Shown here: positions 11,795 to 42,153 of the stretch, one piece after another
Layout: every line of letters begins with the position of its first letter
How positions within the stretch are numbered: position 1 is the stretch's first letter
Origin: Bacteroidota bacterium
GTDB taxonomy: Bacteria > Bacteroidota > Bacteroidia > UKL13-3
NCBI GenBank assembly: GCA_027487835.1
Contig: JAIYCU010000013.1
Span: 62,001-126,000 of the forward strand
DNA length: 64,000 bases
Reading direction: 5' to 3'
Translations under genes and position numbers: made by a program
Notes under the pieces: model-generated
Told to the model about the DNA's origin: nothing
Databases searched by the model: none
Seen by the model: the letters and a program-made list of their open reading frames with translations, nothing else

Positions 11795-11796
11795 AT

Positions 11797-20982: not shown

Positions 20983-21663
20983 ATGACAATCTGGGAATAC
21001 ATACAAGAACCGCATCCGTGGTTTGATACCACCAATTATACGCCTTTGCAAATTGGCCTCTTTACCACCGGCGCCTTGCTTTGGATTTTGGCCTATGTGG
21101 TGGTTATCCGCTATGCGATTAAGTACAAAACAGTCCTTATACCCGCAGTAGCAGTGGTGTGCAATTATGGGAACGAGGTTGGCGGTGCCATTTTTTGGGT
21201 ACCCGATATGGGTAAAGCGCTGGTGCTTGCCTATTGGGGATGGTTTGTGCTCGATACGTTTATCGTTTACAAACTCTTAAAATATGGATACAAACAATAT
21301 ACAACGCCCTTTTTTAAAGACAACCTAAAATGGCTGGTATTGGCGGGCCTTTGCGGCAGCATACCCCTCTCCTGTTTATTTATGGTGCAATATGATTTAC
21401 CCATGGGTGTGATTGATGCCTATATTGTCAATATTGTAATGAGTGTGGCGTTTTTAAGCCTGCTATTTGTTCCAAACTTTCCAGAGCACAGCACACTTTT
21501 GGCTTGGAGTAAATTTTTGGGCACAGGCATTATTAGCGTAATGTTTAGCACCAAATACCCAGAAAATAATTTTCTATGGTTCATTTACTTTGTAGTAGCC
21601 GCTATTGATATTGCCTTTATAATTTTAATGTACCGTAAACGCAAGCAACTACAAACAGCATGA
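20983..21663 (+). CDS. seven-helix integral membrane protein, possibly a membrane terpene-cyclase relative
   Basis: About seven hydrophobic helices fill 226 residues. Charged residues inside helices stand out: Glu in CNYGNEVGGAIFW and Asp in WGWFVLDTFIVYKLLKYGY. Small seven-helix membrane terpene cyclases of the PaxB/AusL type have this size and an intramembrane Glu and Asp at comparable places, and the gene sits beside an isoprenoid-oxidase-like flavoprotein. That similarity is from memory of the family pattern and is not proven. Alternatively it is a membrane sensor partnered with the cyclase, whose start codon overlaps its stop (ATGA). Confidence 0.55.
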   Translation: MTIWEYIQEPHPWFDTTNYTPLQIGLFTTGALLWILAYVVVIRYAIKYKTVLIPAVAVVCNYGNEVGGAIFWVPDMGKALVLAYWGWFVLDTFIVYKLLKYGYKQYTTPFFKDNLKWLVLAGLCGSIPLSCLFMVQYDLPMGVIDAYIVNIVMSVAFLSLLFVPNFPEHSTLLAWSKFLGTGIISVMFSTKYPENNFLWFIYFVVAAIDIAFIILMYRKRKQLQTA

Positions 21664-22895
21664 ACAAAGTCTTCAGGAAAATTTACGACCTAAGCCTTCC
21701 TGCCCTGCCAGAAAGCGATGTTGATTTGCTGAGAAAGCATAAACTATTCATAAACACCTGCCTTTTTACCTCCATTTTTGGCGCAGGGTATGGTGTAATG
21801 AGCTACTTTATTGGGTTTAGCACAGGGGTATGGACAATGGCCGTAAGTGTTGCATTTTTTGTTTCCTGCATTTGCCTGCTTCGTTTTATAAACATTAAAG
21901 TGTTGGGCTTTGTGGTAGGCATTTATACCATATGGCTAAATGCGGTATTGGTGTATTATTCTGGAGGATTATTTACCTCTCCAACTTCACCTTGGATAAC
22001 CCTAACCACCCCAATTGTATTATTGTTAACGAATAGAAAAACAGCCTATGTCATATTAGCCATTTGTGTAGCCTTTGTAATTGGGTATACTTTGGTAATT
22101 AGCAGTGGCTATGTTTTTCCTTTTACCTATGACAAAGAACAGTATCACTTACCTTTTTTAACCTTATCCTTTGGTGGTTTGGTGGTGATTTTCTTTTTGA
22201 TCACAAACGCCTTTGAAAGCTTAAAACAGCAGGCCTTAGACAGTTTGATGCTAAAGCAAGCAGAACTAGAAGCTGAGCAAAAACGCTCGCAAGACTTGCT
22301 ATTAAATATGTTGCCAGCAGATATTGCCGAAGAGTTAAAAGTTACGGGTGGAGCCATTGCCAAACAATACAAAAATGTATCTGTCCTGTTTACCGATTTT
22401 GTGAATTTTACGGGCATCAGCGAAAGCTTAACACCAACTGAATTGGTAGAAGAAATCCATCAAAACTTTACCGCCTTTGATGCCATCATGGAAAAGCATG
22501 GCATAGAGAAAATTAAGACCATTGGCGATGCCTATTTAGCGGTGTGTGGCTTGCCCAATGAAGTTGCTGATCATGCGCAGCGCATCACCAAAGCAGCCTT
22601 AGAAATTCAAGCATTCATGCTCACAAATGGTGGTAAATTTCAAGTAAGAATTGGCATACATTCTGGCCAGGTAGTGGCTGGCATCGTAGGGGTAAAAAAG
22701 TTTGCCTATGATATTTGGGGCGATACCGTAAACATGGCAAACCGCATGGAATCTAATAGCGAACCAGGAAAAATAAATATTAGTCAGGCTACTTATGAAC
22801 TAATCAAAGAGGAGTTTGCGTGTGAGCATAGAGGAAAGATTAATGCCAAAGGGAAAGGGGAGATTGATATGTGGTTTGTGAATAGAAAATTGTAA
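21660..22895 (+). CDS. membrane-bound class III adenylate cyclase (cyclase 1)
   Basis: Six hydrophobic segments in residues about 30-190 form a membrane sensor of the type found on bacterial cyclases and kinases (SGGLFTSPTSPW loop). A short coiled coil leads to a class III catalytic domain. Metal-binding Asp are D246 (LFTDFVNFT) and D290 (IGDAYLAV). Adenine selectivity residues K286 and D351 (AYDIWGD) are those of adenylate, not guanylate, cyclases. The transition-state pair N358 and R362 is present. The domain is therefore expected to be active as a homodimer making cAMP from ATP. Its catalytic domain is almost identical to the GAF-cyclase 19 kb downstream, and it opens the paralogous array that lies between them. 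Confidence 0.95.
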   Translation: MNKVFRKIYDLSLPALPESDVDLLRKHKLFINTCLFTSIFGAGYGVMSYFIGFSTGVWTMAVSVAFFVSCICLLRFINIKVLGFVVGIYTIWLNAVLVYYSGGLFTSPTSPWITLTTPIVLLLTNRKTAYVILAICVAFVIGYTLVISSGYVFPFTYDKEQYHLPFLTLSFGGLVVIFFLITNAFESLKQQALDSLMLKQAELEAEQKRSQDLLLNMLPADIAEELKVTGGAIAKQYKNVSVLFTDFVNFTGISESLTPTELVEEIHQNFTAFDAIMEKHGIEKIKTIGDAYLAVCGLPNEVADHAQRITKAALEIQAFMLTNGGKFQVRIGIHSGQVVAGIVGVKKFAYDIWGDTVNMANRMESNSEPGKINISQATYELIKEEFACEHRGKINAKGKGEIDMWFVNRKL

Positions 22896-22979
22896 ACTCA
22901 CACTTATCTTCATTGGGGTACCTTCTTTATTTATCCTATTGTGAAGATATAATTCTAAATTATTAAATTGTATCAGATT

Positions 22980-22987
22980 TACCTTTG
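22980..22987 (+). promoter_or_regulatory. TAnnTTTG-type minus-7 box (possible)
   Basis: TACCTTTG matches the Bacteroidota minus-7 consensus exactly, but it ends only two bases before the ATG of the first array gene, so a transcript would be leaderless or nearly so. No well-spaced minus-33 TTG is evident. It may be chance. Confidence 0.3.
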
Positions 22988-22989
22988 AA

Positions 22990-24009
22990 ATGAAAAACGA
23001 ACTTTTATTACTTTGTCTAACAATTTTCTCCTTCATTAATATAAAGGCCCAGAACAATTGTAACAATTATATGGATCAAGCCAAATCCTTCTATCAAGTC
23101 GGAAAATTTGATCAAGTTATAAATACTATAAAAACATGCTCAAACACTGAATCCGACCCTGTGAATCAATGGCAATCTTCACGTCTTTTAGCTCAAGCTT
23201 ATTTAGGTCTTAATGATTCAAAAAATGCAAAATCCGCTGCAGAAGATATGTTGGAAAAGAACCCATTGTACAAAACCAGCTTGATTGAAGACAGCAAGGA
23301 GTTTGTGGCTTTAATCAATTCAGTTTCCGTAGTTCCGCGTTTTTCGCTTAGCCTCTCTGCAGCTGCCGGGGTAAATATTAGTTATCCGAATGTGATTAAC
23401 AGTTACGGAATTACTGCTAATAAAAAATACTATGAGAAAGGCAAAGCTAAACAATTCGGACTCTATACCGGATATAGCTTTTCCAAGAGATTAAGTGCCC
23501 ATACAGGTGTAATCTATGCCGAAAATAATTATTCTTTAATCTATGCTGTTCAAAATTTGAATTTTAAGTACAATGAAACTTTAAACTATCTCCAGGTGCC
23601 ATTGTTTGCGAGGTTTCAAATAAAACCTAAAGGAAACTTTAAAGTTTTTGCTCAGGCTGGCGGCATAGCCGGTTTTTTAACAAAAGCAATATATGATATG
23701 GAAAAAACATCCTCCTCCATGGAAGTTACCAAGCTAAAAAGTTTCGATGTAACCGACAGTAGAACGAAAGCAATTTACGGAGCTATCATGGGGATTGGTG
23801 CCAGTTATAAATTGAAAGAAGGCCATGTGTTTGGAGAAATTAATTATCAATATTCTTTTACAAATATTAACAAGGAGAACACACGCTTAAACAATGACAA
23901 TTTGGTTAATAATTATTTCTATATTGATGATGATTTGCGGTTGAATAACCTCATTTTCTCCATAGGTTATACTTTTTATCTTAGTTATTTTGTTCAACGC
24001 GGTAAATAG
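22990..24009 (+). CDS. TPR plus outer-membrane beta-barrel protein, array family A (copy 1)
   Basis: A signal peptide (about 1-20, INIKAQ) is followed by a periplasmic helical-repeat region (about 25-100): MDQAKSFYQVGKFDQVINTI and a second TPR-like pair with ARxLAQAYLGL. From about residue 115 alternating aromatic/small residues and repeated Tyr/Phe strand ends indicate a PF13568-like barrel of roughly ten strands, closing with an IDDDLRLNNLIFSIGYTF strand. Family A has one other copy about 10 kb on, with the same ending (FIDDDIQLSNL). It is followed after eight bases by a family B relative. The tandem A-B arrangement recurs. An outer-membrane channel or receptor with a periplasmic protein-binding module is inferred. 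Confidence 0.8.
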   Translation: MKNELLLLCLTIFSFINIKAQNNCNNYMDQAKSFYQVGKFDQVINTIKTCSNTESDPVNQWQSSRLLAQAYLGLNDSKNAKSAAEDMLEKNPLYKTSLIEDSKEFVALINSVSVVPRFSLSLSAAAGVNISYPNVINSYGITANKKYYEKGKAKQFGLYTGYSFSKRLSAHTGVIYAENNYSLIYAVQNLNFKYNETLNYLQVPLFARFQIKPKGNFKVFAQAGGIAGFLTKAIYDMEKTSSSMEVTKLKSFDVTDSRTKAIYGAIMGIGASYKLKEGHVFGEINYQYSFTNINKENTRLNNDNLVNNYFYIDDDLRLNNLIFSIGYTFYLSYFVQRGK

Positions 24010-24017
24010 AACATTTG

Positions 24018-25052
24018 ATGAAAACTAAAATTCTCACAATTTTTGTAATTTACCTTCTCATTTTTTCAAAAGGATGGGCGCAGACTGCTGATAAAACGGC
24101 TTGCATAAATAATCTAACAGCTGCAAACACCCTTTATGAGAAAGCTCAATTTGCTGAAGCTATTTCTCTTTTGGAGCCCTGCATACAATCCGGTCAAATG
24201 AAAAAAAACGAAGCTGATGCCTACCGTATTTTAGGCTTATGTTATCTTCAAATGAATAATGAAGCGAAAACAAACGACGCTATTGCTCACCTGTTAAAGG
24301 CTAATAACAATTACCAACAATTCCCATTCAATGATCCAAAAGAATTTACCAAAATTGTAAATTCATTTACCGTTCAATCAAAACTTACCCTTGGCATAAA
24401 AACAGGATTCAACTTCAGTTTTCCCAATATCACTCAAGCATACAGTATTAAACCAGCCACCCTCGAAACTCAAAGTGGAAGAGGCCAGTTTCTTGGAATA
24501 ACTGGAGATTATTTTTTTAAGCAGAAAACTTTTGGTATCAATGCTTGGACTGCGGCAAGCACCTTGGTGTTTACCGAAAATGTTATTTTTAATGATATTG
24601 AAAAAATTAACTTCAAAGAGGAATTGAAATATGTAGATATAGGTTTAGAATTCAAGTATTTTCCAATGAAAAAGGCAAGAATACAGCCATACCTCGGACT
24701 TGGAGTTAATATGTTAATCCTCAGAAGCGCCATATCCAATGTTGTTTATACCAATAGTTACCTCGGCACCAAAAATGAAAGTAGTCGAGATATGGAGGTA
24801 GAGGGCTTTGTTAGTTCAATAGTTTATAATGGCATTGTAGATTTTGGAATCAATGCAAAAGCGGGAAAAGGTGTTTTGGGACTCGGTTTACAACACGGGT
24901 ATGCATTTTCTTTAAGCAATAACCCAGAAGCACGCTATGATAACCTTGAATATACCCTTTCCAATCAATGGGTTGATTGTGATGTAAAGTTAAACTACTT
25001 AAATGTGTATGTCACGTATTCATTTCCTTTGTTGTGGAGGGTTTATAAATAA
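24018..25052 (+). CDS. TPR plus outer-membrane beta-barrel protein, array family B (copy 1)
   Basis: The layout is that of the preceding gene: signal peptide ending SKGWAQ, a TPR region with ANTLYEKAQFAEAISLLEPC and YRILGLCYLQMN, an FNDPKEFTKIVN linker, and a barrel from about residue 118 to the end. I use the ATG; a TTG codon immediately before it would add one residue. B differs from A in its strand sequence and ends with a segment of the type LSNQWVDCDVKLNYLNVYVTY shared with the second B copy. The pair A-B looks like an ancient duplication kept together, perhaps as a hetero-oligomeric outer-membrane complex. Confidence 0.8.
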   Translation: MKTKILTIFVIYLLIFSKGWAQTADKTACINNLTAANTLYEKAQFAEAISLLEPCIQSGQMKKNEADAYRILGLCYLQMNNEAKTNDAIAHLLKANNNYQQFPFNDPKEFTKIVNSFTVQSKLTLGIKTGFNFSFPNITQAYSIKPATLETQSGRGQFLGITGDYFFKQKTFGINAWTAASTLVFTENVIFNDIEKINFKEELKYVDIGLEFKYFPMKKARIQPYLGLGVNMLILRSAISNVVYTNSYLGTKNESSRDMEVEGFVSSIVYNGIVDFGINAKAGKGVLGLGLQHGYAFSLSNNPEARYDNLEYTLSNQWVDCDVKLNYLNVYVTYSFPLLWRVYK

Positions 25053-25059
25053 CTTGAGA

Positions 25060-26349: not shown

Positions 26350-26367
26350 TAAAAATTCATTTTTAAA

Positions 26368-27561
26368 ATGCAACGAATAATACTCATTATCCTACTTATT
26401 ATTTCAATTACTATTGAAGGGTGTAGGAAAGAGCCCGCAGAAATAAACAATAACAAAATTAATTTCTATCCAACCAAATTTAATTTTTTCTCAAATGTAG
26501 TTAATACAAACCTAGATGTGTCGAGAGGTGAGTATATAATATTTGGTGTACAAGATTATCGTGGCGCTAATCTTTATAACAATATCCTGAGGTTACCCAT
26601 GATATCAGTTGATTTAAATAATAACAGTAAGCTTGAAGGTACTATTGATTACCATTTTACAAATGGCAGTATTCATGAAAACCTAAAGCAGTTGAATGAT
26701 TCGGATCAGGTTAACGACATTGTATCCAGCAATGAAAGCAATTATATTACTACCATGCCTCCTCAGATTAATAAAAATGGAAGAAAAATTGCTTTGATGA
26801 ATGGTAATCTGAACATTCTTAGTCAGGCCTTTCCTAAACAAGCACAAGATATAGGAAATTTTTTTCACTCGGCTGTTCTGCAAAATGGAGACTATATTAT
26901 TTCACATACCCTATTATCCAGCAATACAGAATACTTTACGTGTTTTGATCAGAATTTTAATTTTAAATGGAGAAGTGCTATGTCAAATCCTACCTTTTTA
27001 TGTGTTGGATCAAACTCTATTCTTTTGGCCTATCCGAGCGAAATAAAGCAATATGATTATCTAGGTAAAAGAATAAATACGCTACCTATGGAATCAAATT
27101 ATTCAATTCAAAATTTGATTGCTGTTCCCGAGGGTTTTATAGTCATAGGGCGATATTTAAGGTCGGATAAATTTGATAATATGTTTATTCGGCTCTACGA
27201 TAATAATTTGAAATTAGTAAAATCCAATATTATTGAAACTAAAACCTTTTCGGCCAACCCAAATTACAAGTTTTATTTAAGATCGAATATCTTGGTTGAA
27301 AAGGAGGGTATTTATTTTGTTGTAAACATGCGAAATCCCAAAGACCCCTTTTACCCAATTGAAGATGCTGTATTGATTAGACTAAACAACAATTTTAATC
27401 CTGAAATTATTGAATTAGTTGATAATAGAAGAAAGGCGTTCTCAAATAGTCTACTTACCCGATATAAGAATGAAATTCTATGTGTTGGTCCAAGCACATG
27501 GAATGAACAAAATGGGTTTAGTTTTATTAAAATGAATATGGATGGGAATACAAAATACTAA
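26368..27561 (+). CDS. lipoprotein, array family D (copy 1)
   Basis: A lipoprotein signal (IISITIEGC, then RKE) precedes about 380 residues of mostly beta structure. Motifs such as YIIFGVQDYRGANLYNN, FICFD-like and GFIVIGRYLRSDKFDNMFIRLYD suggest degenerate propeller blades. It lacks the KGFFFYRMDQNGDFK-type ending of the later D copies but has the related SFIKMNMDGNTKY. Each D gene directly follows a C gene, so C and D probably work as a pair. The function is not recognised. A gap of 135 bases without a gene separates it from the next C-D pair. Confidence 0.7.
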   Translation: MQRIILIILLIISITIEGCRKEPAEINNNKINFYPTKFNFFSNVVNTNLDVSRGEYIIFGVQDYRGANLYNNILRLPMISVDLNNNSKLEGTIDYHFTNGSIHENLKQLNDSDQVNDIVSSNESNYITTMPPQINKNGRKIALMNGNLNILSQAFPKQAQDIGNFFHSAVLQNGDYIISHTLLSSNTEYFTCFDQNFNFKWRSAMSNPTFLCVGSNSILLAYPSEIKQYDYLGKRINTLPMESNYSIQNLIAVPEGFIVIGRYLRSDKFDNMFIRLYDNNLKLVKSNIIETKTFSANPNYKFYLRSNILVEKEGIYFVVNMRNPKDPFYPIEDAVLIRLNNNFNPEIIELVDNRRKAFSNSLLTRYKNEILCVGPSTWNEQNGFSFIKMNMDGNTKY

Positions 27562-27696: not shown

Positions 27697-29019
27697 ATGA
27701 AACTTGAAATAAAACAATTTATCTTTTTTTTAGTAGCGGTTTTTCTTTTTATTTCAGGTTGTAAAAGAGAAATACCTGATCAAGCACCTAACGCCTCTAT
27801 TGGGATTACTTATTCTTTACCTGGAAATCAAGTAATATTTGGGTCATTAAAAGCCCCTGATGGAGGTTATTTACTTTGGGGATACACCAAAGATATTACA
27901 GGGGCTCAAGATGCTTTTTTAATGAAATTGGATCAAAACCAACAATTGGTTTGGCATAAAGCATTCGGTGGAGTTAGCGCTGATGAATTCCGTTCAGCAT
28001 GTTATGATAAGGAAGGAAACATATTGGCAACAGGCATGTCTATAAGCTATGACAAGGATAACCGTAGAGGGGATTTTCCTACTATGTATACGGTTTATTT
28101 AACAGGAACAAGTGACATTATTTGGGAGAAATACTTCAGTGCACCCTCCACTGCACCCAATCTTTCTACAATGGCCAATAAGGTTTTAAATTTACCTAAT
28201 GGCAATTTTGCTTTGGTTGGCTCTTCTCAAAATTATGAATCGAAAATACCCTTTGATACTTCGATTGCCTATATAGTTTATCGTTCTTTTATTTTGTATA
28301 TAGATTCTAAAGGTGATTTTTTAGGAAGCGGGAGCTATGATGTTTTTGATGACAAAACTTTTGAAAAAAAGATATATACAAATGTTTTTGGTGTCAATGC
28401 AGTGCTCACACCAGATAACCATATCCTTCTAATGCAACTTAAAGTTAATTTTTGTGTTGACACAATATTATCCTTTGGAGATTTTGGACATTTTGAAACT
28501 AATTTTATTGGTGGTTTATCCTTTTGTAAAATAGATCCCGATAAACCAGCAGGTTATAATTCATATGTTTGGAAAAAAAACATACTTCAACTGAATATTC
28601 ATTACGATATCGAGCAAACTAATACCAAATATACATTACCACTCGTCAAACTTTCATCTGCTAGTGCAGGTTATGGTATGGTTTATCCATCAAAAAATGG
28701 GCTAGTTCCAAATTTTGTTCGCATTAGTGAAAATATAGAATTATTAAGTGAGTCAGTTGCCTCTTTACCTCTTTTAGGATCTTCCTCAATTCAAGAAGAA
28801 GGTAACTTTGTATGGATTGCATCTGATGGAATTATTTCGAAATTAATTAAAAATGGGGATTATATATGGACCAAAAAGTACAACAAAATAAATGATGTGT
28901 CAGGAATTTATCCGCAAGCAGATGAATCCTTAGTGGTTTTTTGTTTTACCATCAACAACCAATCTGAATCTGATATTACATGTATCAGGTTGGATAAAAA
29001 TGGGGAATTATTAAAATGA
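27697..29019 (+). CDS. propeller-like lipoprotein, array family C (copy 2)
   Basis: I start at the second ATG (eleven codons inside the longest frame) because it gives the lipoprotein signal MKLEIKQFIFFLVAVFLFISGC followed by KRE. The mature protein shows the C-family signature GNQVIFGSLKAPDGGYLLWG, then DAFLMKLDQNQQLVWHKAFGG and YDKEGNILATGMS, i.e. successive propeller blades ending in D-x-G turns. A conserved C-terminal block reads SGIYPQADESLVVFCFTIN. The stop overlaps the start of the following D gene by four bases (ATGA), which points to coupled translation of the pair. Confidence 0.8.
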   Translation: MKLEIKQFIFFLVAVFLFISGCKREIPDQAPNASIGITYSLPGNQVIFGSLKAPDGGYLLWGYTKDITGAQDAFLMKLDQNQQLVWHKAFGGVSADEFRSACYDKEGNILATGMSISYDKDNRRGDFPTMYTVYLTGTSDIIWEKYFSAPSTAPNLSTMANKVLNLPNGNFALVGSSQNYESKIPFDTSIAYIVYRSFILYIDSKGDFLGSGSYDVFDDKTFEKKIYTNVFGVNAVLTPDNHILLMQLKVNFCVDTILSFGDFGHFETNFIGGLSFCKIDPDKPAGYNSYVWKKNILQLNIHYDIEQTNTKYTLPLVKLSSASAGYGMVYPSKNGLVPNFVRISENIELLSESVASLPLLGSSSIQEEGNFVWIASDGIISKLIKNGDYIWTKKYNKINDVSGIYPQADESLVVFCFTINNQSESDITCIRLDKNGELLK

Positions 29020-30284
29020 GGAGAATGAAAACAAATAATTTAAATGTAATTAACAAATTTGTATTAGGTTTTTTGATTGCCTTCACCTTTGCTTGTGCAA
29101 AACCTAATGGAGAAGTGTCAATAAGTGCACAAAATATTTATCAGCTACCCTCTGGCAATTGGTGGAATTTAAAATGGTATTTGGCCAATCAAGAATTTGG
29201 GGCTTTTACATTAGGTCTAGACAAATCCATTTTCTTTAATTTGAATAAATTTGGATTTGATTTTTCCAAGAAGAAATTCACTAATCAGCTAGTTGAACAA
29301 TATTTTCGTGATTCACAAACAACAAAACTTCCTTTTGTATTCGAATCCAAAGTTTTACAATTGGATGAAATTCGTTTTTTACATATTAAAATAGTAAGTG
29401 ATAAGTTTTCACCATCTTCATCAATTGACTTTTATTACAAAGTATACCTTACTAATAGTACCTTAAATAGTGCTGTTTTGCTATCAGATTTGGACAGTTC
29501 TTATGATGTTTCTTCGGCATCGGTAAATTCTGATAATAAAATTATTTTAGTAGGCCAAAAAAACGATTATAGTCGAACTAAAGTAACTTGTATTAATGGC
29601 CTAAAAACTGAATGGGTTAGATTTATTGCATTAGATTTTCAGAATTCAAATCTTAAGGTGACTGATCAAAATATTTACATGCTAATTCACAGTTTAAGTT
29701 ATAATGATTTAAGTTATCCAGATAATAGAATTGTTTGCTATGATTTTACCGGGAAATTAATTAAAACCAACTTTTTGTCTACATATAATGGTAGTTATAC
29801 TTTTCATTCTATTTCATTCATTAATAGTAATATTGTATTACTAGGAGAAAAATACAACGAATTAAATAGAAGCGCAGATTTATGTTTTTTAACTATGGAT
29901 AAATCTTTCAATATTCTTAAAGAAAAAGTATTGCCATATAAGACGTTTATTGAGGATTATGATAATTCATCAAATAAATATGGAAGTTCAAAGGTTGTTT
30001 TAGACCCTATTGTTTTAGGACTTAATTTTTGGCTACCTGTGCGTTATTTTGACACCAAATTTGGTGAAAGTTTAAAATTGATAAAAATGGGTTCAACTTT
30101 CAACATTGAATTTGTTAAACCAATATTTACTAATATTAATCCAAACTTAAATAATGTTAATGGCACTAACTTCAATATAAGGTATGTAGGTTTCAAAACA
30201 GATAATCAATACTTATATCTTGGAGGCTTAAATTACAAGGGATACTTCTTTTATAGACTTAACCAAAATGGAGACTTTAAATAA
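29016..30284 (+). CDS. lipoprotein, array family D (copy 2)
   Basis: The signal ends LIAFTFAC followed by AKP. The D-family start EVSISAQNIYQLPSGNW and WYLANQEFG blocks and the end GGLNYKGYFFYRLNQNGDFK are clear. Internal repeats such as IRFLHIKIV and ICYDFTGKLIKTNFL resemble blades. The first ATG overlaps the C gene; an ATG three codons later would work as well. A small hairpin (ATCCCC/GGGGAT) lies in the 94-base gap after it, but has no T run and is at best a weak processing or attenuation site. Confidence 0.75.
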   Translation: MRRMKTNNLNVINKFVLGFLIAFTFACAKPNGEVSISAQNIYQLPSGNWWNLKWYLANQEFGAFTLGLDKSIFFNLNKFGFDFSKKKFTNQLVEQYFRDSQTTKLPFVFESKVLQLDEIRFLHIKIVSDKFSPSSSIDFYYKVYLTNSTLNSAVLLSDLDSSYDVSSASVNSDNKIILVGQKNDYSRTKVTCINGLKTEWVRFIALDFQNSNLKVTDQNIYMLIHSLSYNDLSYPDNRIVCYDFTGKLIKTNFLSTYNGSYTFHSISFINSNIVLLGEKYNELNRSADLCFLTMDKSFNILKEKVLPYKTFIEDYDNSSNKYGSSKVVLDPIVLGLNFWLPVRYFDTKFGESLKLIKMGSTFNIEFVKPIFTNINPNLNNVNGTNFNIRYVGFKTDNQYLYLGGLNYKGYFFYRLNQNGDFK

Positions 30285-34021: not shown

Positions 34022-35047
34022 ATGAAAGCAAGTATATTTTTTTCGCTCCTTCTTTTAGTTTGCTTTTGCGCAAACGCACAATCCACTCAAACAGATTGTA
34101 GCAACGTGCTTATTGCCGCTGATAAAGATTATGAGGCGGGTAGGTTCTCAAATTGTATAGAGAAGCTAAACAATTGCATGAGCTCATTAGCCAAACAAGA
34201 TCGCTATGAGGCTTACCGACTTTTGGCCTTGTGCTATATGGTTACAAATGAAGACCAAAAGGCAAACGAAAGCATGGTTCAGTTATTAGAACACAAACCA
34301 GATTACAGAGATTATCCTTATTTTGATCCACTTGAGTTTACAAAACTTGCTGTAAAGTACACTGTGTGGTCGCAACTTGAACTAGGTTTAAAAACAGGTG
34401 TTAATATTAATTCAATTCGGGTAATAGAAAATTATTCTATAACTGGATTAGGTGGGGTGTATAATCCAGAACTTGGATTTCAAGTGGGTATCTTAGGAGA
34501 GTATTTTTTTAAAAAGAATATTTCTGTTGGGCTCGACCTAAGTTATGAAGGACTCAATTATTCTAAAACTACCATAGAACCTTCTGAATGGACACAAGAA
34601 TTTACTGAAAACTTAAGGTATTTCTCTATACCTGTAACTGGTAAATATTACTTTTTGAACAAAAAAGGATTCAGGATGTCGGCCGAATTGGGTTTGCAAG
34701 TACAGTTGCTTTCTCAAACAAATTCTACCATAGAATTTAGTAACCAAAAAACCAATGAAATCATACAAAAAACTGCTGAGCAAAAAAGCCAGAGAACAAA
34801 TACGCTTTTATACGGGTTGGGAGGGATAGCAGTATACAAAAAGTTAGGAGGAGGTAATGTGTTTATGGATATAAGGTATGCTTATGGATTTAGCAATGTG
34901 GTAAATGCAGAAAAGCGTAACGATAACCCCGAATTTAGCTTTACCAATCAATATATCGACAGTGATATTGCCTTTAATCCTTTATATATTTCATTTGGCT
35001 ACCAATTTCCAATACCTCAATTTTATAAAGCAAAGTTGGCGCAATAA
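34022..35047 (+). CDS. TPR plus outer-membrane beta-barrel protein, array family B (copy 2)
   Basis: Signal peptide ending CANAQ; TPR region AADKDYEAGRFSNCIEKLNNC and YRLLALCYMVTN; linker FDPLEFTKLAVKYTVWSQLELG; then a barrel with GLKTGVNIN, ISVGLDLSYEGLNYS and YISFGYQFP at the end. The linker matches copy 1 of B closely. Cysteines near the start of the TPR region (TDCSN, LNNC) are kept in all four A/B proteins and may form a disulphide in the periplasm. The downstream gap holds one exact GGTTTGAACC. Confidence 0.8.
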   Translation: MKASIFFSLLLLVCFCANAQSTQTDCSNVLIAADKDYEAGRFSNCIEKLNNCMSSLAKQDRYEAYRLLALCYMVTNEDQKANESMVQLLEHKPDYRDYPYFDPLEFTKLAVKYTVWSQLELGLKTGVNINSIRVIENYSITGLGGVYNPELGFQVGILGEYFFKKNISVGLDLSYEGLNYSKTTIEPSEWTQEFTENLRYFSIPVTGKYYFLNKKGFRMSAELGLQVQLLSQTNSTIEFSNQKTNEIIQKTAEQKSQRTNTLLYGLGGIAVYKKLGGGNVFMDIRYAYGFSNVVNAEKRNDNPEFSFTNQYIDSDIAFNPLYISFGYQFPIPQFYKAKLAQ

Positions 35048-35129
35048 CCAGTAAACCCCTTTTAAATTATTACTTAGTTTTAGGTAAAACAACTAAATGG
35101 CGGTTTGAACCCAAAAAATTAAAAATCAA

Positions 35130-36446
35130 TTGAAAAACAAGATCAATATAATCCGTTTATTACTTCCTCTAGTCTTGCTCGTTTTTTTTACGAGCTGCAA
35201 AAAGGAAATTGATAAGCAAAATCCAAATACCAGTTTTGGAAAGGTTTATCCTATAGCAGGAAACCAAAATTTATTAGGCTCATGCAAAGCACCAGATGGA
35301 GGTTACTTATTATGGGGATATACCGATGGCAATGCCATGGGAGGCCAAGATGGGTTTTTAATGCGCTTAGATAGTGCGAATAATTTAATTTGGTATAAAC
35401 AATTAGGTGGCAGTAGAAACGACATCATTTGCAAAGCCGCTTACGACAAGCAAGGTAATATTGTAGCTGGAGGTGAATCAAATAGTTTTAACGACATTTC
35501 TGATACTACTAAATTGGGAATTTATAATCGCATGTATGTTGTTTATGTTACAGATAAGGGAGAAATCATTTGGGAAAAAACATATACCGATAACTCAGGT
35601 GGAAAAAATGTATTAAATAGATTATTTTTAAATAGCCTATTGGTTTTACCAAATGGTAATATTGCATTGGTAGGTTCCACAATAAACTTTGACCCCAAAG
35701 ATTTTGCTTTAGTTACTTACCAAAGTAATAAAGCTTTTATACAGTGTATTAACAATATGGGAGATACGCTTTGGAATTGCAAATATCATTTATTAGATAT
35801 TGATACATTTGGAGTAAGTTATAATGGTTATCATGGAGTAAATGCAACACTAACTAATGATGGAAACATATTGATGCTTCTTTGTAAAGGTATTTCAAAT
35901 GCATATGTAGATGGGTCATTAGATAAAACAGATTATTCGTTGACTTTATTAAAAATATCTCCAAATATTACAACTGGAGAAAATAAATATATATGGAGAA
36001 AGCACATAAAAAATTTATCAACTTACTTATTGAATTACCAAAATGAATTTATTCCCTTTAAAATGATTGATACCCTTTCTGAAAAATATATGATGGCTTT
36101 TGGAAATGGAGGTCTATTTAATTTTGGCACTTTTGATAAAGAAGCAAATAGTATTGCAAGTTTTAATAATCATAAATTTAATAACATTGAGAGTTCATTA
36201 GATTTTGAAGTTTACAATAATTCAATTTATTTTTTTGCTCCTAATTATTTTTATAAGGTATCATTAAATGGGGTGGTAGAATGGGAAAAGAAAATGATAG
36301 GAAGCGATATCAAAACTGGATTTGGCATTTATTTTAAACCCGATAAAAGCATCACTACTTTTTGCACTTATTTTAATGCACAAAGCGAACTCGATATTGG
36401 GGCATTGATATTAAAAGAAAATGGAGAAATAAAAACTAAACCATGA
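35130..36446 (+). CDS. propeller-like lipoprotein, array family C (copy 4), TTG start
   Basis: No suitable ATG exists: the lipoprotein signal (LLPLVLLVFFTSC then KKE) begins at a TTG, so I accept TTG as the start codon. The family signature follows: GNQNLLGSCKAPDGGYLLWG, DGFLMRLDSANNLIWYKQLGG, YDKQGNIVAGGESNSF. The end reads FGIYFKPDKSITTFCTYFN. The last codons overlap the D gene by four bases. A weak start codon on an otherwise tightly packed pair might lower translation of this copy. Confidence 0.75.
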   Translation: MKNKINIIRLLLPLVLLVFFTSCKKEIDKQNPNTSFGKVYPIAGNQNLLGSCKAPDGGYLLWGYTDGNAMGGQDGFLMRLDSANNLIWYKQLGGSRNDIICKAAYDKQGNIVAGGESNSFNDISDTTKLGIYNRMYVVYVTDKGEIIWEKTYTDNSGGKNVLNRLFLNSLLVLPNGNIALVGSTINFDPKDFALVTYQSNKAFIQCINNMGDTLWNCKYHLLDIDTFGVSYNGYHGVNATLTNDGNILMLLCKGISNAYVDGSLDKTDYSLTLLKISPNITTGENKYIWRKHIKNLSTYLLNYQNEFIPFKMIDTLSEKYMMAFGNGGLFNFGTFDKEANSIASFNNHKFNNIESSLDFEVYNNSIYFFAPNYFYKVSLNGVVEWEKKMIGSDIKTGFGIYFKPDKSITTFCTYFNAQSELDIGALILKENGEIKTKP

Positions 36447-37687
36447 AACCAATAAATATATATTTCAAATTAGCTTACTTATTATCTTTAATGCTTTGCA
36501 TTGTTTTTATTTCATGCGAAAAAGAAAAAGGGATAATTAAGCCAAGTGCCCAAAATGTATATTCTTTTTCAGTTGTAAAAAACCAAAACTATAATTGGAT
36601 TTTGACTAATGAAGAAATAAGTTTTTATTATGAAAATTTTAAAATTTTACCTAACAATAATGTTTCAATTATTAATTTAAACAGGGTTGGTTTCAATTCA
36701 ATAACAGGACAGTTTTCTACATCTTTAAGCAACAGTGAAAATAAACTAGATTCATTTGATTTTATTAATAATGTTAAGATTATTCAATTAAATGAAAGTA
36801 AATTTTTAAAGATAAATAAAGTTTTATACCAGATAGATACACCATACTTTAATTCTAAAACTAATTTATTTATAACAGACAAAAATTTAAATGTTCAAAA
36901 TAAGTTAACTTGGGATAGCAGTGAAACTATCTTAACTGCAGGAATGCTTCCTGATGAAAGAATAATTATTGTTTCTCAAAAAGGAGTTTCCACTAATGTA
37001 ACTTGTTTAAAAACAGATTACAGTATAGATTGGAAGAAAACAATAGGAAATATTAATGTAATAGGTAATGAAATAAATGATTTAGTTATTACAAATGAGT
37101 CTATTTTTCTTCAAACAAATGATTTGTTTAGTAGAAATGATATTAATCATCTAATAAAATTAAATTTTTCTGGAATGAATCAAATAAGCAGACAAATAAA
37201 AGATCAAGGTAAATATGAGTTTAATAATATGGAAGAAAGTGAAAATGGAATGGTCCTTTCGGGACAAAAGTACAATCCTTTTACTGGTTTAATTGATCTT
37301 TGCTTTCTTACCTATGATAACAATTTAGCAATAGCAAATGAAACCATAATTAATATAACTGATTATTTTCCTGATTGGGATATTAACAATAATACTTCCT
37401 ATTGGATTATATCCAAATACTTTACTCCCTTAGTAAAAGATGAAACCGGTTATTGGATTGCAGCTACTTATCCTAATAAAAAAAATACGTATAGTATAAA
37501 GTTAATAAAATTTAACAAGCAAATGCAATTAGAAAAAATTATACCAATTATTACCAATATGGATGATAACTATACTAGCACTCAGCTTAAAATGGATGCT
37601 AACCATATTTACATTACATATGCCAATGTGCAAAAGGGCATTTACTTTTTTTTATTAAACAAAAGCGGAGATTTAATTGAAAATTGA
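36443..37687 (+). CDS. lipoprotein, array family D (copy 4)
   Basis: Lipoprotein signal LMLCIVFISC then EKE. D-family blocks: IIKPSAQNVYSFS, NYNWILTNEEISFYYENF, and a shortened ending VQKGIYFFLLNKSGDLIEN. It is the most AT-rich and Asn/Ile-rich of the D copies and is diverged in the middle. The STAND NTPase gene starts 15 bases later, so the last pair of the array is probably on the same transcript as the signalling genes. Confidence 0.75.
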   Translation: MKPINIYFKLAYLLSLMLCIVFISCEKEKGIIKPSAQNVYSFSVVKNQNYNWILTNEEISFYYENFKILPNNNVSIINLNRVGFNSITGQFSTSLSNSENKLDSFDFINNVKIIQLNESKFLKINKVLYQIDTPYFNSKTNLFITDKNLNVQNKLTWDSSETILTAGMLPDERIIIVSQKGVSTNVTCLKTDYSIDWKKTIGNINVIGNEINDLVITNESIFLQTNDLFSRNDINHLIKLNFSGMNQISRQIKDQGKYEFNNMEESENGMVLSGQKYNPFTGLIDLCFLTYDNNLAIANETIINITDYFPDWDINNNTSYWIISKYFTPLVKDETGYWIAATYPNKKNTYSIKLIKFNKQMQLEKIIPIITNMDDNYTSTQLKMDANHIYITYANVQKGIYFFLLNKSGDLIEN

Positions 37688-37702
37688 TATCATAATAAAT
37701 AA

Positions 37703-40681
37703 ATGAACGCAATAAATCCATTTCCAGGTTTACGACCATTTCAAGCACATGAAGCTCACCTGTTTTTTGGAAGGGAGCGATACATTGATACCATTATTGA
37801 AAAGTTAAATTTACATCATTTTGTTTCAATTGTAGGGAATTCGGGAAGTGGAAAATCATCTTTACTAAGGGCTGGAGTAATTCCAAAACTCATTAAAAGT
37901 AATGATTGGATTGTGTTAACCATGCGCCCGGGAAAACATCCTGTAGAAGAACTTTATCATGTATTGAATAGCAATTCAGCCCTACAGTTAAATACAAATG
38001 CGGAGCAGCAATTAACTATTTTGCAAAATAATGAGTTAGGTTTGGTTCAAATAGTAAGAAATAGTCTTCCCTCAGGCAAACGACTTTTATTAGTAGTAGA
38101 TCAATTTGAGGAGCTGTTTCGCTTTCAAAAAACCCAAGAGGACATTGCCATACAATTTGTTAATTTACTTTTAAAGGCTATCGGTCAAAGGGATATACCC
38201 ATTCATATTATTATTACACTTAGGAGTGATTTTATAGGTGATTGTGAACAATTTATTGGTTTACCTGAAGCCATTAATAATGGACAGTTTTTGATTCCAC
38301 GAATGAAAAAGGATGAATTGCAACTAAGCATTACTGGTCCGGTTGAATACGTTGGAAATAGAATTTCGCCCAGATTGGTTCAACAACTATTAAATGCAGT
38401 GGGTACAAATCCAGATCAATTACCCGTGCTCCAGCATGTGTTAATGCGCACATGGGAAGTATGGAAAAATGCAAATGATATTGATGGCCAAATAGATTTA
38501 GTTCATTACGAAGCTACAGGAGGAATTGAAAAAGCCTTGTCTAATCACGCGGAGGAGGCAATGGATGAAATAAATACAGAGGATAAGAAACAAATTACTG
38601 CCATTTTATTTAAAACATTAACCCTCAAAGAAGCTGATAACAGAGGTGTTAGAAGGCCAACTTCTGTTCAAAAAATTGCCGAAATAGCGAATACATCTGT
38701 TGAAAATTTGATTCCTATTATAAACGTATTTAGAAAAGAAGATAAGGGATTTCTAACACCATCTTTTCCAACAAGTATCAATGAAAAAACCATGATTGAT
38801 ATATCGCATGAAAGTTTAATGCGTGTATGGGAACGATTATCAAATTGGGTAGAGGAAGAATATGATTCGGCTCAAATCTACCAACGCATTACCGCTAGTG
38901 CTTTGTTGTATGAAAAAGGTTTATCTGGCTTGTGGCGAGACCCCGATTTGCAGATTGCAATAGATTGGAATGCTAAGTATAATGTAAACCAAAAATGGAC
39001 TGAACAATACAATGGTTTTTTTGAATTGTCGAAACGATTTATTGATGCCAGTCATCAGCAAAAGATGTTTTTGCTAGCGGATCAAAGGCGTAAGAGAAAA
39101 CTAACCAACATGCTTACCATTGCAGTGCTCATTACTTTAAGTGCATTGAGTATTTGGGCATTTACTGAGCGAAATAAGTCTGGTAAAAATGAGGAGCTTG
39201 CTGTTAACGAAAAGAAGAAAGCACAACAACAAGAAATACTAGCGCAAGAGCAAAAGTTAGTAGCTGAAGCGAATGCAAGCAAGGCAGAAAAAGAGAAAAA
39301 AAATGCTGAGGTTCAAAAGCAATTGGCCATAAAAAACGAATCGGAAGCCAAGTTGCAAAAGCAAAATGCTGAGCAATCATCTTTACTAGCCAACAAGGCC
39401 AGAAAATTAGCTGAGATGGAGAAACAAACTGCAATTGAAGAACGCACCAAAGCAGATAGCTTAAGAAAAGTAGCTATTCTGTCTGAGAAAAATGCCTATC
39501 GCCTAAGCATTCTCTCTATTGCTCAAGCTTTGGCCATAAAATCTACAGCACTTAAAGTTGGGTCGAATGAGGATGAAGTTAAAAAGTTATTGGCTTTGCA
39601 AGCCTATAAATTTAACAGAGAATACCAAGGTAAAACTACTGATGTAGATATCTATACAGCCCTATATTCCGCTTATAAAGAAAGTCGTACTGAAGATGAT
39701 TTTCAAAATGCGAGTCATATAGACATGGTGCGTTCAGTTGCTTTTAATCCTAAAACAAATGAGTTAGCAAGCGTTGGATCAGACGGATTATTGCTTATTC
39801 ATGATGGGGTCAAAATCAATAAAATTCTAAAACAATATCCCAGGCAAAATGCCATTTTGGATAATATAGCTTACAATGCTCTTGGCGATAAAATTGCTTG
39901 CTTGGCGGATGGAGTTAGCGTAATTATTTTTAATTCCAATAACCAAAATGAAGGTGTTAAAATGCCAATTATTCATACCGATAAATTGACTGGAATAGCT
40001 TGGGGTGGCGAGCACATCATTACCATTTCAAATGACAATACACTTAAAATTACCCATTCTATCACCCAAAAATTGCAGGCAAGTATACCTTTAACAGCTA
40101 AACCAACCTGTTTGGTAATTTCCGCTGATAAGCGTTTTGCATTTGTTGGTCATGAAAATGGATTGGTAAGTAAGGTAAATCTAGAAAGCAATTCAATTTC
40201 AACAATTGTCCAACTAAAAGAAAAAATCACTGCCATTGATTGCGCTCTAGAAAAATTAGCATTGGGCACTTATAGCGGAAAAATAGAATTAATTGATTTA
40301 AAAACAAATCAATCAGTAATTGGTGGCAACCTAAACAGACATATATCTACCGTCACTAGTTTGGCATTTTCAGAAAACGGAAAAAACTTGATTTCTGGTA
40401 GTTTAGATGGTATAGTTTATAAATGGCAGTTTAGCCAAAAGGAGGCAATAGCTATACCTTTCAAAGACCATAGTTCTTGGGTTTGGAGTGTTGCATTTAA
40501 TAAAAAGGAAGATCGTTTTTGCTCTGGAGGCAAAGATAAAAAAGTGATTTTATATGTTAACAAGGAGGAGGATTTGGTAGAAGAAATAATGCAAACTTGT
40601 AAACGTAATTTAACGTTATCGGAATGGATTCAATATATAGGAGAAGATATCCCTTATCAAAAAACAATTGCCAAATTTTAG
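37703..40681 (+). CDS. STAND NTPase with transmembrane segment, coiled coil and WD40 repeats
   Basis: The N-terminus NPFPGLRPFQAHEAHLFFGR and Walker A GNSGSGKS (45-52) with Walker B LLLVVDQFEELF (D133) define a novel STAND (nSTAND1-type) NTPase, a signal-transducing switch with a winged-helix region to about residue 430. One hydrophobic helix (about 470-488), a long Lys/Glu/Gln-rich coiled coil (490-600) and WD40 repeats (about 655-960; GSDGLLLIHDG, GSLDGIVYKWQFS, GGKDKKVILY) follow. If the NTPase is cytoplasmic, the WD40 part lies in the periplasm, where it could meet the array's TPR and propeller proteins. It is followed 44 bases later by an adenylate cyclase, an obvious output. Confidence 0.9.
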   Translation: MNAINPFPGLRPFQAHEAHLFFGRERYIDTIIEKLNLHHFVSIVGNSGSGKSSLLRAGVIPKLIKSNDWIVLTMRPGKHPVEELYHVLNSNSALQLNTNAEQQLTILQNNELGLVQIVRNSLPSGKRLLLVVDQFEELFRFQKTQEDIAIQFVNLLLKAIGQRDIPIHIIITLRSDFIGDCEQFIGLPEAINNGQFLIPRMKKDELQLSITGPVEYVGNRISPRLVQQLLNAVGTNPDQLPVLQHVLMRTWEVWKNANDIDGQIDLVHYEATGGIEKALSNHAEEAMDEINTEDKKQITAILFKTLTLKEADNRGVRRPTSVQKIAEIANTSVENLIPIINVFRKEDKGFLTPSFPTSINEKTMIDISHESLMRVWERLSNWVEEEYDSAQIYQRITASALLYEKGLSGLWRDPDLQIAIDWNAKYNVNQKWTEQYNGFFELSKRFIDASHQQKMFLLADQRRKRKLTNMLTIAVLITLSALSIWAFTERNKSGKNEELAVNEKKKAQQQEILAQEQKLVAEANASKAEKEKKNAEVQKQLAIKNESEAKLQKQNAEQSSLLANKARKLAEMEKQTAIEERTKADSLRKVAILSEKNAYRLSILSIAQALAIKSTALKVGSNEDEVKKLLALQAYKFNREYQGKTTDVDIYTALYSAYKESRTEDDFQNASHIDMVRSVAFNPKTNELASVGSDGLLLIHDGVKINKILKQYPRQNAILDNIAYNALGDKIACLADGVSVIIFNSNNQNEGVKMPIIHTDKLTGIAWGGEHIITISNDNTLKITHSITQKLQASIPLTAKPTCLVISADKRFAFVGHENGLVSKVNLESNSISTIVQLKEKITAIDCALEKLALGTYSGKIELIDLKTNQSVIGGNLNRHISTVTSLAFSENGKNLISGSLDGIVYKWQFSQKEAIAIPFKDHSSWVWSVAFNKKEDRFCSGGKDKKVILYVNKEEDLVEEIMQTCKRNLTLSEWIQYIGEDIPYQKTIAKF

Positions 40682-40725
40682 AAAATGAATCTCTCATTAA
40701 CAACACTTAAACAAGCTATATCTTT

Positions 40726-42153
40726 ATGATCTTAACATTACTAGTAATGGGCATTTCCCTTATAGCAGCGATGTTTATATTTTGGAAATTTTTTATTCTA
40801 AATAAGCAAGTATCTGAGCTACGCGCCAAAACAGATTTCGCTTTACAATCTGATACATTAATCAAGATTGAATATACGATAGAAAACGATCTTGGTAAAA
40901 TTGCCGATAACTTTAATTCATTAGGATCCCGTTATACTGGCCAACTTAGTCAATTGGGTGAGTATGCCAATATGCACAAAGAACACAGCGAGCTTAGCGG
41001 TAAAATGCAAAATATTGAAACCTCATTTTCGCAAATATCATTAATTACAGACATTGGAAAAGATATTACCTCTAGCTTAGGTTTGAACCAAATTTTGAGC
41101 AAAGTATTTAAGTATATCTATTCAAGCATGACAATTGATGAAGTTCACTTGTTGGTTGAAAAAAATGAAAATCGGTATTATTATGTTATTAGAGATAAGA
41201 ACGTTCAATTGGTTACTAAAACAGAATGGATAAATAACCCTGACAATGTATTGAATTGGACTTTTGTAAACAACAAGGAGCTTTTCTTAAGCGACGCAAA
41301 GGCTAATTATGAGCAATATGTTTTTAATCCAATAACCTTGTTTGATAATAGAGAAGCTGGTTCCGTGTTAAGTATTCCTTTTGGGTTTAATACCAAGCAA
41401 ACTGGTAGCATTGCCATATTGAGCAAAAAGGAAGGTGCGTTTGATCCATATCAATTAGATTTTGTGCGCTCTATTGCCTCCTATATTGCAGTGGCTATTG
41501 ACAATTCTAATTTATTTGAAGCGTTAGACGGTGAACGACTTAAATCAGAATCTCTTTTGCTAAATATTTTGCCATCAGATGTGGCCACAGAGCTAAAACA
41601 GACAGGAAAGTCGGAAGCCAAATTGTATGGCAATGTAAGCGTTTTGTTCACCGATTTTGTAAACTTTACAGGCATTAGCGAACAAATGAGTCCTACAGAA
41701 TTGGTTCAAGAAATACACAAGAATTTTACTGCTTTCGACGCCATCATGGAAAAACATGGCATAGAGAAAATAAAAACCATTGGCGATGCCTATTTAGCGG
41801 TATGTGGTTTGCCTAACGAAGTGGAAGACCATGCCCAATGCATTACTAAAGCAGCATTGGATATTCAGGAGTTTATGCAAAGCAATGATGGTAAGTTCAA
41901 AATAAGAATAGGCATTCATTCTGGCCCAGTAGTAGCAGGCATCGTAGGAGTAAAAAAGTTTGCTTACGATATTTGGGGCGATACGGTAAACATGGCAAGT
42001 CGCATGGAAAGCAATAGTGAGGCCGGTAAGATTAATATTAGTGCAGCCACTTACGAGTTAATTAAAGGGGAGTTTGTATGTGAGCATAGGGGGAAAATAA
42101 ATGCCAAGAACAAAGGCGAAGTAGATATGTACTTTGTATCTGCAAAAAAATAA
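40726..42153 (+). CDS. GAF-domain class III adenylate cyclase (cyclase 2)
   Basis: One N-terminal membrane helix (about 2-22), a helical linker, a GAF domain (about 105-265: DIGKDITSSLGLNQIL to YIAVAIDNSNLFEAL), then a class III cyclase. Catalytic residues are complete: D310 and D354 for metals, K350 and D415 for adenine, N422 and R426 for catalysis. The catalytic domain is nearly identical to cyclase 1, even at the DNA level over stretches such as CATGGCATAGAGAAAAT. The sensors differ entirely (six helices versus GAF). It ends the array and its stop codon lies inside the stem of a strong terminator. Confidence 0.95.
   Translation: MILTLLVMGISLIAAMFIFWKFFILNKQVSELRAKTDFALQSDTLIKIEYTIENDLGKIADNFNSLGSRYTGQLSQLGEYANMHKEHSELSGKMQNIETSFSQISLITDIGKDITSSLGLNQILSKVFKYIYSSMTIDEVHLLVEKNENRYYYVIRDKNVQLVTKTEWINNPDNVLNWTFVNNKELFLSDAKANYEQYVFNPITLFDNREAGSVLSIPFGFNTKQTGSIAILSKKEGAFDPYQLDFVRSIASYIAVAIDNSNLFEALDGERLKSESLLLNILPSDVATELKQTGKSEAKLYGNVSVLFTDFVNFTGISEQMSPTELVQEIHKNFTAFDAIMEKHGIEKIKTIGDAYLAVCGLPNEVEDHAQCITKAALDIQEFMQSNDGKFKIRIGIHSGPVVAGIVGVKKFAYDIWGDTVNMASRMESNSEAGKINISAATYELIKGEFVCEHRGKINAKNKGEVDMYFVSAKK

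Follow-up and report, generated by a model that had tools for sequence, protein, structure and literature searches.

A STAND-centred gene array as the probable cyclase-output branch of a modular system for trans-envelope signalling in Bacteroidota

We analyzed a 64,000-nucleotide stretch of a Bacteroidota genome (the window) and propose that one of its loci is probably the cyclase-output branch of a modular Bacteroidota system that signals across the envelope and has a STAND switch as its transducer. The support from sequence comprises gene content, linkage, predicted topology, domain identities, exchange of barrels and outputs, and cyclase active-site residues; from these we infer WD40-TPR contact, STAND oligomerisation, cyclase activation and the nature of the ligand. 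STAND switches are known chiefly as cytosolic immune sensors. The locus points to an undescribed route of signalling across both bacterial membranes, and no earlier description of such a system was found in the open-access literature.

The locus consists of 15 ORFs on the forward strand at 21660-42153, with intergenic distances of -4 to 102 bp (Table 1). The initial annotation had described two cyclases enclosing the order A-B-C-D-C-D-C-D-A-B-C-D and a STAND gene, all on one strand with short gaps; the ORFs and pairwise comparison confirmed this order and spacing. The genes B1 and C1 probably start at 24018 and 25060, respectively, and not at the first start codon of their ORFs. A terpene-cyclase-like gene lies directly upstream and is overlapped by cyc1 by 4 bp, and a type I restriction-modification system with GmrSD occupies positions 12-14895. 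The same components recur together in two congeneric genomes and in two named MAGs from Bacteroidota, so that the array is no random succession of genes. In the related loci G015/L073 and L082, a single A and a single B accompany a pair of propeller lipoproteins; the large paralogue array is thus not essential. Of the envelope signalling system first suggested, the grouping of STAND, barrel and propeller lipoprotein into one conserved unit was supported.

Table 1. Genes of the locus, with positions in the window
Gene	Position	Strand	Features
cyc1	21660..22895	+	Class III adenylate cyclase, several N-terminal membrane helices; Guanylate_cyc PF00211 1.2e-57
A1	22990..24009	+	Signal peptide, two-Cys TPR adaptor, OMP_b-brl_2 barrel; PF13568 2.8e-12; TPR-CC match 5.6e-21
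B1	24018..25052	+	Divergent; signal peptide, TPR adaptor, barrel; TPR-CC match 1.0e-22
C1	25060..26349	+	Propeller lipoprotein, divergent C; lipobox before Cys; 30-32% to C2-C4 over ~240 aa
D1	26368..27561	+	Propeller lipoprotein, very divergent D; lipobox-like IEGC; E ~1e-3 to D3/D4, marginally alignable
C2	27664..29019	+	Propeller lipoprotein; 43% to C3
D2	29016..30284	+	Propeller lipoprotein; 4 bp overlap with C2; 31% to D3
C3	30379..31719	+	Propeller lipoprotein; 97% to G007 counterpart
D3	31725..32957	+	Propeller lipoprotein; AF2 model, PDB propeller matches
A2	32964..33992	+	TPR adaptor, barrel; PF13568 1.9e-14, TPR_2 7e-6
B2	34022..35047	+	TPR adaptor, barrel; PF13568 1.9e-18
C4	35130..36446	+	Propeller lipoprotein; AF2 model, PDB propeller matches E 2e-16
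D4	36443..37687	+	Propeller lipoprotein; 4 bp overlap with C4; 27% to D2/D3
STAND transducer	37703..40681	+	nSTAND1 NTPase (res. 6-405), TM helix (470-488), coiled coil, WD40 propeller (~670-965)
cyc2	40726..42153	+	TM, GAF, adenylate cyclase; PF00211 3.4e-58, GAF_2 2.4e-6

The STAND protein, the only full nSTAND1 protein of the genome, matched PF20703 at 1.5e-94 (318 bits against a curated cut-off of 27.1). Its P-loop GNSGSGKSS and Walker B motif LLLVVDQFEEL were intact and largely invariant in alignments (A4, A10), and its WD40 region matched Apaf-1 structures (E 1e-41 to 1e-46). In published STAND conflict systems (Kaur et al. 2020, 2021), an effector or effector-associated domain is part of the STAND protein or encoded next to it; here, an N-terminal effector domain was absent, the NTPase beginning at residue 6, and many loci had an adjacent TIR-DUF4062 protein or cyclase. 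The motif RRKRK immediately precedes the membrane helix. One such helix separates NTPase and WD40 in 84 of 85 homologues. All 84 single-helix homologues followed the positive-inside pattern, which predicts a cytosolic NTPase and a periplasmic WD40, in line with the topology of the initial annotation; a cytoplasmic WD40, named beforehand as an arrangement that would refute the model, was not seen in these predictions.

To survey the cassette, 80 loci were fetched with the STAND protein as the only query, and these were combined with the window, G007, G015 and two G049 loci into a set of 85. The next gene encoded a TPR-barrel in roughly nine tenths of the 80 fetched loci; in the full set it did so on the same strand in 73, with a contig edge in four more; a propeller stood at +2 in 51 and a giant secreted protein at +3 in 45. 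TIR-DUF4062 was found at -1 in 49 loci, and a gene family of the NTT-HEAT-cNMP-binding type in 65, the cNMP-binding match being near or under the Pfam cut-off in some members. The outputs differed by locus: TIR-DUF4062, SpoIIE/STAS/HATPase or, in a five-member clade to which the window belongs, adenylate cyclase. Loci of the TonB-receptor type had neighbours different from those of other loci. The adaptor Cys pair, the TonB-receptor barrels, the giant partner and the alternative outputs were beyond what the window alone, as first annotated, could show.

The cyclase-linked STAND proteins formed one clade with full support, and STAND proteins of this clade were rare (3 of 64 genomes of the order). 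A TM-cyclase of the cyc2 length class adjoined STAND in all five members, a linkage kept despite inversions and reordering. The cyc2 protein appears to be this clade's constant output, in the role that TIR-DUF4062 has elsewhere. A counterpart of cyc1 was present in G007 only, and L082 has a different second cyclase; cyc1 is a variable member of the system. Of the proposal that the cyclase reports as cAMP, the link between STAND and cyclase was supported within the clade, whereas a cyclase occurs in no more than 5 of the 85 loci overall: we read cAMP as a variant of this clade and not the defining trait of the system. Among the nine CRP/FNR-type (cNMP-binding) proteins found in the genome, one of which was not recovered as an ORF, no canonical cAMP phosphate cassette was seen. 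The catalytic domains of cyc1 and cyc2 were 77.6% identical over 219 aa, in agreement with the near-identity noted initially; however, a third, unlinked cyclase (contig C17) was 68-78% identical to both, and the similarity was rejected as evidence of a bracketed unit.

Both cyclases carry the motifs FTDF, KIKTIGDAY, YDIWGDTVN and YDIWGDTVNMANR/ASR, which were conserved in relatives and also in the L083 cyclase. The metal aspartates, the adenine-specifying Lys and Asp, and the catalytic Asn/Arg were all present; judged from these motifs, cyc1 and cyc2 keep the residues of true class III adenylate cyclases. PADLOC gave PycC matches of 1e-15 to 1e-16, which the class III fold in general would be expected to give. 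An assignment to Pycsar or to a known defence system was rejected, given the adenine-type residues and nothing convincing in PADLOC for the other parts. These results bear on an immune or abortive-infection role, in which the same wiring would serve death or defence: a barrel or giant protein would sense a phage or attacker, and STAND would fire a suicidal effector (a TIR NADase, here the cyclase). STAND and TIR are classical parts of conflict systems, the window also encodes restriction-modification (type I, with GmrSD) upstream of the locus, and TIR, caspase and cNMP-cyclase domains are interchanged in published conflict systems (PMC7159879, PMC8195603). However, no effector-associated domain was seen, the cyclases are of the adenine type with unremarkable PycC matches, PADLOC lacked a convincing match for the other parts, and the outputs include SpoIIE, STAS and HATPase regulators, which are typical of regulation. 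We consider such a role unlikely, although it survives best among the alternatives.

On the envelope side, A and B were paralogues (24-27% identity, E 1e-23 to 1e-31) and are, on sequence comparison, a single family of TPR and outer-membrane-barrel proteins. Identity was 37% between A1 and A2 and 30% between B1 and B2 (4e-45); the Pfam scan of B1 gave nothing but a sub-threshold OmpW match. A2 was 56% and B2 54-55% identical to the A and B, respectively, of G015 and of L082. We defined the two-Cys TPR adaptor (alignment A6) as about 90 aa following the signal peptide, with a Cys pair about 25 residues apart. The two Cys were kept in 75 and 74 of 82 TPR modules, and the pair probably forms a disulfide. 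The aligned receptors consist of signal peptide, two-Cys TPR and barrel, and the adaptor was common to small barrels and TonB-receptor barrels among them.

Foldseek searches with the AF2 models of C4 (pLDDT 83, pTM 0.84) and, more weakly modelled, D3 (pLDDT 68, pTM 0.68) returned propellers, consistent with the propeller-like fold first assigned to C and D. Although both are predicted to fold as propellers, their profiles align at the signal peptide only, and the idea that they are two branches of one sequence family was rejected. D homologues in L073, L082 and L083 were also rejected; because the profile match was weak (probability 51%), these proteins are named second propeller lipoproteins. 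C-family matches in distant genomes were left out of the counts because most of them covered just one or two repeats of a generic propeller kind. No surface-export signal was evident on C and D.

In 47 loci the cassette is followed by a giant protein, and those examined carry Por_Secre_tail (type IX secretion). The cassette might serve to export or assemble giant type IX cargo or a surface complex, with STAND and cyclase working as an energy-driven factor for assembly or quality control rather than as a receptor pathway. The OMP_b-brl_2 barrels are PorT-like (weak T9SS_PorT_SprT match), and TPR plus propeller is reminiscent of PorE/PG1058. On the other hand, the giant gene is absent beside the window locus and its cyclase clade, TonB-type loci have other neighbours, the adaptor pairs with kinases too, and nSTAND1 and TIR/cyclase proteins are not known to act in assembly. 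This explanation is improbable.

In a reverse test, 393 evenly drawn genomes were searched with the TPR-CC profile, and 18 matches were strong (E <= 1e-20). In fourteen cases the neighbour was nSTAND1 (genome-level Fisher p 1e-7), in one a frame-split STAND, and in three a PEGA-domain transmembrane Ser/Thr kinase, so that all 18 adjoin an intact or broken nSTAND1 or a TM kinase. For the TPR module this is the opposite of homologues commonly occurring without STAND (14 of 18, or 15 of 18 with the broken copy). True exceptions were G003 and G013 of the same genus, which have TPR-barrels with weaker TPR matches and propeller lipoproteins, and neither STAND nor cyclase. Mirror-tree analysis of 35 loci, in which distances were partly saturated, gave r 0.94 for NTPase versus TIR. 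After removal of the NTPase distance, values were 0.40 for WD40-TPR and 0.38 for WD40-propeller (0 of 2000 permutations), and neither TPR-TIR (0.13, 192 of 2000) nor TIR-propeller (0.06) stood out. By this measure, the envelope parts co-vary with WD40, not with the cytosolic output. Adjacency could also arise from co-regulation. A mere co-inherited, co-expressed envelope gene set flanked by independent cyclases by chance is the least probable explanation: cyc1 may belong with the overlapping terpene-cyclase-like gene, but the cyc2-type linkage outlasts rearrangement, the high-scoring TPR module occurs only beside transmembrane signal proteins, and the covariation is with WD40 rather than the cytosolic output.

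In the signalling system that we favour, a surface condition would be registered by the barrels (A, B) and propeller lipoproteins (C, D), together with the giant type IX-secreted surface protein in most relatives. The barrel's N-terminal periplasmic TPR module would pass the signal to the periplasmic WD40 of the inner-membrane STAND. By analogy with other STAND proteins, WD40 autoinhibition would be relieved, and the cytosolic nSTAND1 would exchange nucleotide and cluster. Clustering would switch on the adjacent output, the TIR-DUF4062 protein in most relatives; in the window, it would activate the TM-GAF cyclase cyc2 and produce a cAMP pulse. More tentatively, these loci may represent a new class of trans-envelope signalling, in which an inner-membrane STAND of the NLR/Apaf-1 kind is gated on its periplasmic side by a TPR adaptor on interchangeable outer-membrane receptors and has interchangeable cytosolic outputs, and in which the adaptor also gates transmembrane Ser/Thr kinases. 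If so, signals would have a new route over the two-membrane envelope, by way of a STAND branch that reads the outer membrane with its own receptor adaptor. A cassette repeated across Bacteroidota would gain a function, TIR- or cAMP-coupled surface sensing would become testable, and the adaptor domain would offer a simple handle to discover further such systems.

The nSTAND1 NTPase systems (PF20703) named in PMC8195603 share with this locus the NTPase family, a C-terminal sensor (here WD40) and nearby TIR/cyclase outputs. The described members are regarded as sensors in conflict systems and have effector-associated domains. In the present locus, the TM helix is predicted to leave the sensor on the periplasmic side, and its partner is a receptor of the outer membrane that has its own adaptor. 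The order of NTPase and WD40 propeller is as in Apaf-1; unlike Apaf-1/NLR switches, the protein spans the membrane, its sensor is predicted to lie outside the cytoplasm, and it has no CARD. The class III cyclase fold is shared with Pycsar, in which a pyrimidine-specific cyclase has a cognate effector gene, but the residues here are adenine-type, the architecture is GAF/TM, and no Pycsar effector was present among the scanned neighbouring proteins. The type IX secretion component PorE (PG1058) likewise combines TPR and propeller parts in the Bacteroidota periplasm; it is a single OmpA-anchored lipoprotein with no STAND, unlike the system here. In FecA-FecR-FecI-type systems, the periplasmic STN domain of a TonB barrel signals to a single-pass inner-membrane anti-sigma factor. 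The resemblance lies in a barrel whose N-terminal periplasmic signalling module addresses a single-pass inner-membrane protein, and in the TonB receptor that serves as barrel in one branch here. No Pfam match to an STN domain or FecR-type partner was found in A-D, the scanned TonB-type receptors or the scanned neighbours. In the present system, a two-Cys TPR takes the place of STN and STAND-WD40 that of the anti-sigma factor, and the outputs are TIR, cyclase or partner-switching proteins.

The initial annotation had proposed paired barrel and lipoprotein genes and a STAND NTPase between two adenylate cyclases in the window (positions 62001-126000 of contig 27; whole genome, 3.38 Mb), and this array was borne out in order, strand and spacing, with -4 to 102 bp between genes (see table). 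Judged by its relatives, the genome belongs to the Bacteroidota. A and B formed one paralogous family with a signal peptide, a TPR-like module and an OMP_b-brl_2 barrel. C and D carried lipobox-like signal peptides, and AlphaFold predicted all-beta folds that Foldseek matched to propellers; the C4 model was of good confidence (pLDDT 83), the D3 model of moderate confidence (68). The 992-aa STAND protein, the only full nSTAND1 copy in the genome, comprised nSTAND1 (PF20703, 1.5e-94), one transmembrane helix, a coiled coil and WD40 repeats.

Coordinates of the array, its window neighbours and loci fetched from other genomes (L-numbers)
Sequence	Position	Strand	Feature
window	12-14895		extended type I restriction-modification locus: HsdM, HsdS, HsdR-like, GmrSD-type endonuclease
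window	12-2528		unusual N6-methylase fused with histidine-kinase-like ATPase domain, in the same locus
window	19226-21663		amine-oxidase/phytoene-desaturase-like gene, then Pyr4-like transmembrane terpene cyclase; 4-bp overlap with cyc1
window	21660-42153	+	cyc1, A1 B1 C1 D1 C2 D2 C3 D3 A2 B2 C4 D4, STAND, cyc2
window	42214-44340 and 61177-63408		PKD-repeat proteins, type IX sorting tails; one directly downstream of cyc2, opposite strand
L072 (G007)	14966-17377		803-aa protein combining both part types of window 19226-21663, at the counterpart site
L074	4228-7416		~1050-aa family consistently near STAND cassette: NTT/MFS-like transporter, HEAT repeats, weak cyclic-nucleotide-binding domain (65-locus cluster)
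L075	4981-8133		same ~1050-aa family
L077	6901-12571		orphan TPR-barrel and propeller lipoproteins, STAND absent nearby; 724-731 aa C-terminally membrane-anchored protein, no Pfam match
L078	9483-14536		as L077
L079 (G049)	3264-15541		two tandem 1351-aa nSTAND1 proteins, TIR-DUF4062, TPR-S proteins; without barrel
L172	9268-13064		TPR adaptor beside PEGA-domain transmembrane Ser/Thr kinase and PP2C phosphatase
L173	1476-7468		as L172
L174	2906-9716		as L172

Two genomes of the same genus carried related loci, ordered cyc1-C-D-C-D-A-B-STAND-cyc2 in G007 and cyc2-STAND-C-D-A-B in G015 (STAND identity, 47%). Loci from two named MAGs (L082 and L083) encoded a STAND protein, a membrane-anchored cyclase, A and B barrels (two A-B pairs in L083) and propeller proteins in differing orders and orientations. 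The five STAND proteins formed a single clade with full support. Gene content was kept despite rearrangement, and this speaks for a functional unit. Its constant cyclase was cyc2 (TM-GAF-cyclase); cyc1 was not constant.

With the STAND alignment alone, 80 loci were retrieved from a collection covering 84,980 species, and the window, G007, G015 and two G049 loci completed a set of 85. The next same-strand gene after STAND encoded a TPR-barrel in 73 of these, and a contig edge lay there in four others. Neighbours were clustered by single linkage, which may have drawn in a few fragments or unrelated proteins. This placed a TPR-barrel in 79/85 loci, a propeller protein in 53 (position +2 in 51), a giant protein in 47 (+3 in 45) and TIR-DUF4062 in 49 (-1); members of an NTT/HEAT/cNMP-type family were placed in 65. 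Each of the three complete giants examined had the type IX sorting domain Por_Secre_tail at its end. A second branch had this same TPR module joined to a full TonB-dependent receptor (Plug and barrel), with STAS and HATPase_c_2 among the genes upstream; SpoIIE-HAMP proteins were found in other loci. The tandem nSTAND1 set of L079 is a separate STAND system within G049.

A single helix separated NTPase from WD40 in 84/85 STAND proteins, and the 15 residues preceding it held more K+R than the 15 following in 84/84 (means 6.0 and 2.6). From this the positive-inside rule predicts a cytosolic NTPase and a periplasmic WD40 domain. The TPR modules followed a signal peptide and had a Cys pair in about 75/82 sequences, as expected for a periplasmic domain. 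Distances were compared in 35 TIR-type loci with 2000 permutations, and NTPase distances followed TIR distances (r 0.94). After NTPase distance was removed, WD40 co-varied with TPR (0.40), propeller (0.38) and barrel (0.31), each 0/2000 permutations, and with TIR at 0.22 (14/2000); neither TIR-TPR (0.13) nor TIR-propeller (0.06) was prominent. This pattern matches a cytosolic half and an envelope half; the distances were partly saturated, and the co-variation therefore serves as supporting evidence only.

TPR alignment A6 and nSTAND1 were each searched in the same 393 genomes, evenly sampled across the phylum. TPR matches at E <= 1e-20 numbered 18, in 12 genomes, and 14 adjoined nSTAND1, which at E <= 1e-30 occurred in only 28/393 genomes (Fisher p 1e-7, shared ancestry ignored). 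Of the other four, one (G183) lay beside a frame-split STAND, and those in G379, G274 and G389 had as neighbours PP2C and a PEGA-domain transmembrane Ser/Thr kinase. Since the strong matches adjoin STANDs or transmembrane kinases, the module appears to serve transmembrane signal proteins as their adaptor in the periplasm. True exceptions, with weaker scores (8e-18 and 2e-17), were G013 and G003, where no STAND accompanied the TPR-barrel and propeller lipoproteins. Loci L172, L173 and L174 possibly represent a parallel, kinase-based trans-envelope system.

The most economical model is a chain in which a surface event would act on the barrel with its propeller lipoproteins, the barrel would signal through the periplasmic TPR module to periplasmic WD40, and WD40 would set the STAND switch and a cytosolic output. 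Linkage, domains and predicted topology are evident from the sequences; contact, switching and output activation we infer. Both cyclases of the window retained the pair of metal aspartates as well as the Lys and Asp that specify adenine, so their predicted product is cAMP. The genome encoded nine proteins with cNMP-binding domains, and on inspection the usual cAMP phosphate cassette was seen in none of them. A defence role would fit the type I restriction system upstream in the window, but several outputs are regulators and the cyclase is of the adenine type; we therefore favour regulation, with defence as the less likely role.

In the parts consulted, nSTAND1 is named in PMC8195603, conflict systems with STAND and cyclase or TIR are described in PMC7159879, PMC8195603 and PMC10907252, and some DGR-diversified STAND-system proteins have predicted periplasmic sensor domains (PMC10907252); those parts of the three papers describe no outer-membrane receptor partner for STAND. 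Literature searches confined to an open-access library turned up no account of the STAND-barrel cassette. We take the cassette to be a variant form of STAND signalling not previously described in that literature, and there is a fair chance that it constitutes a new class of trans-envelope system.
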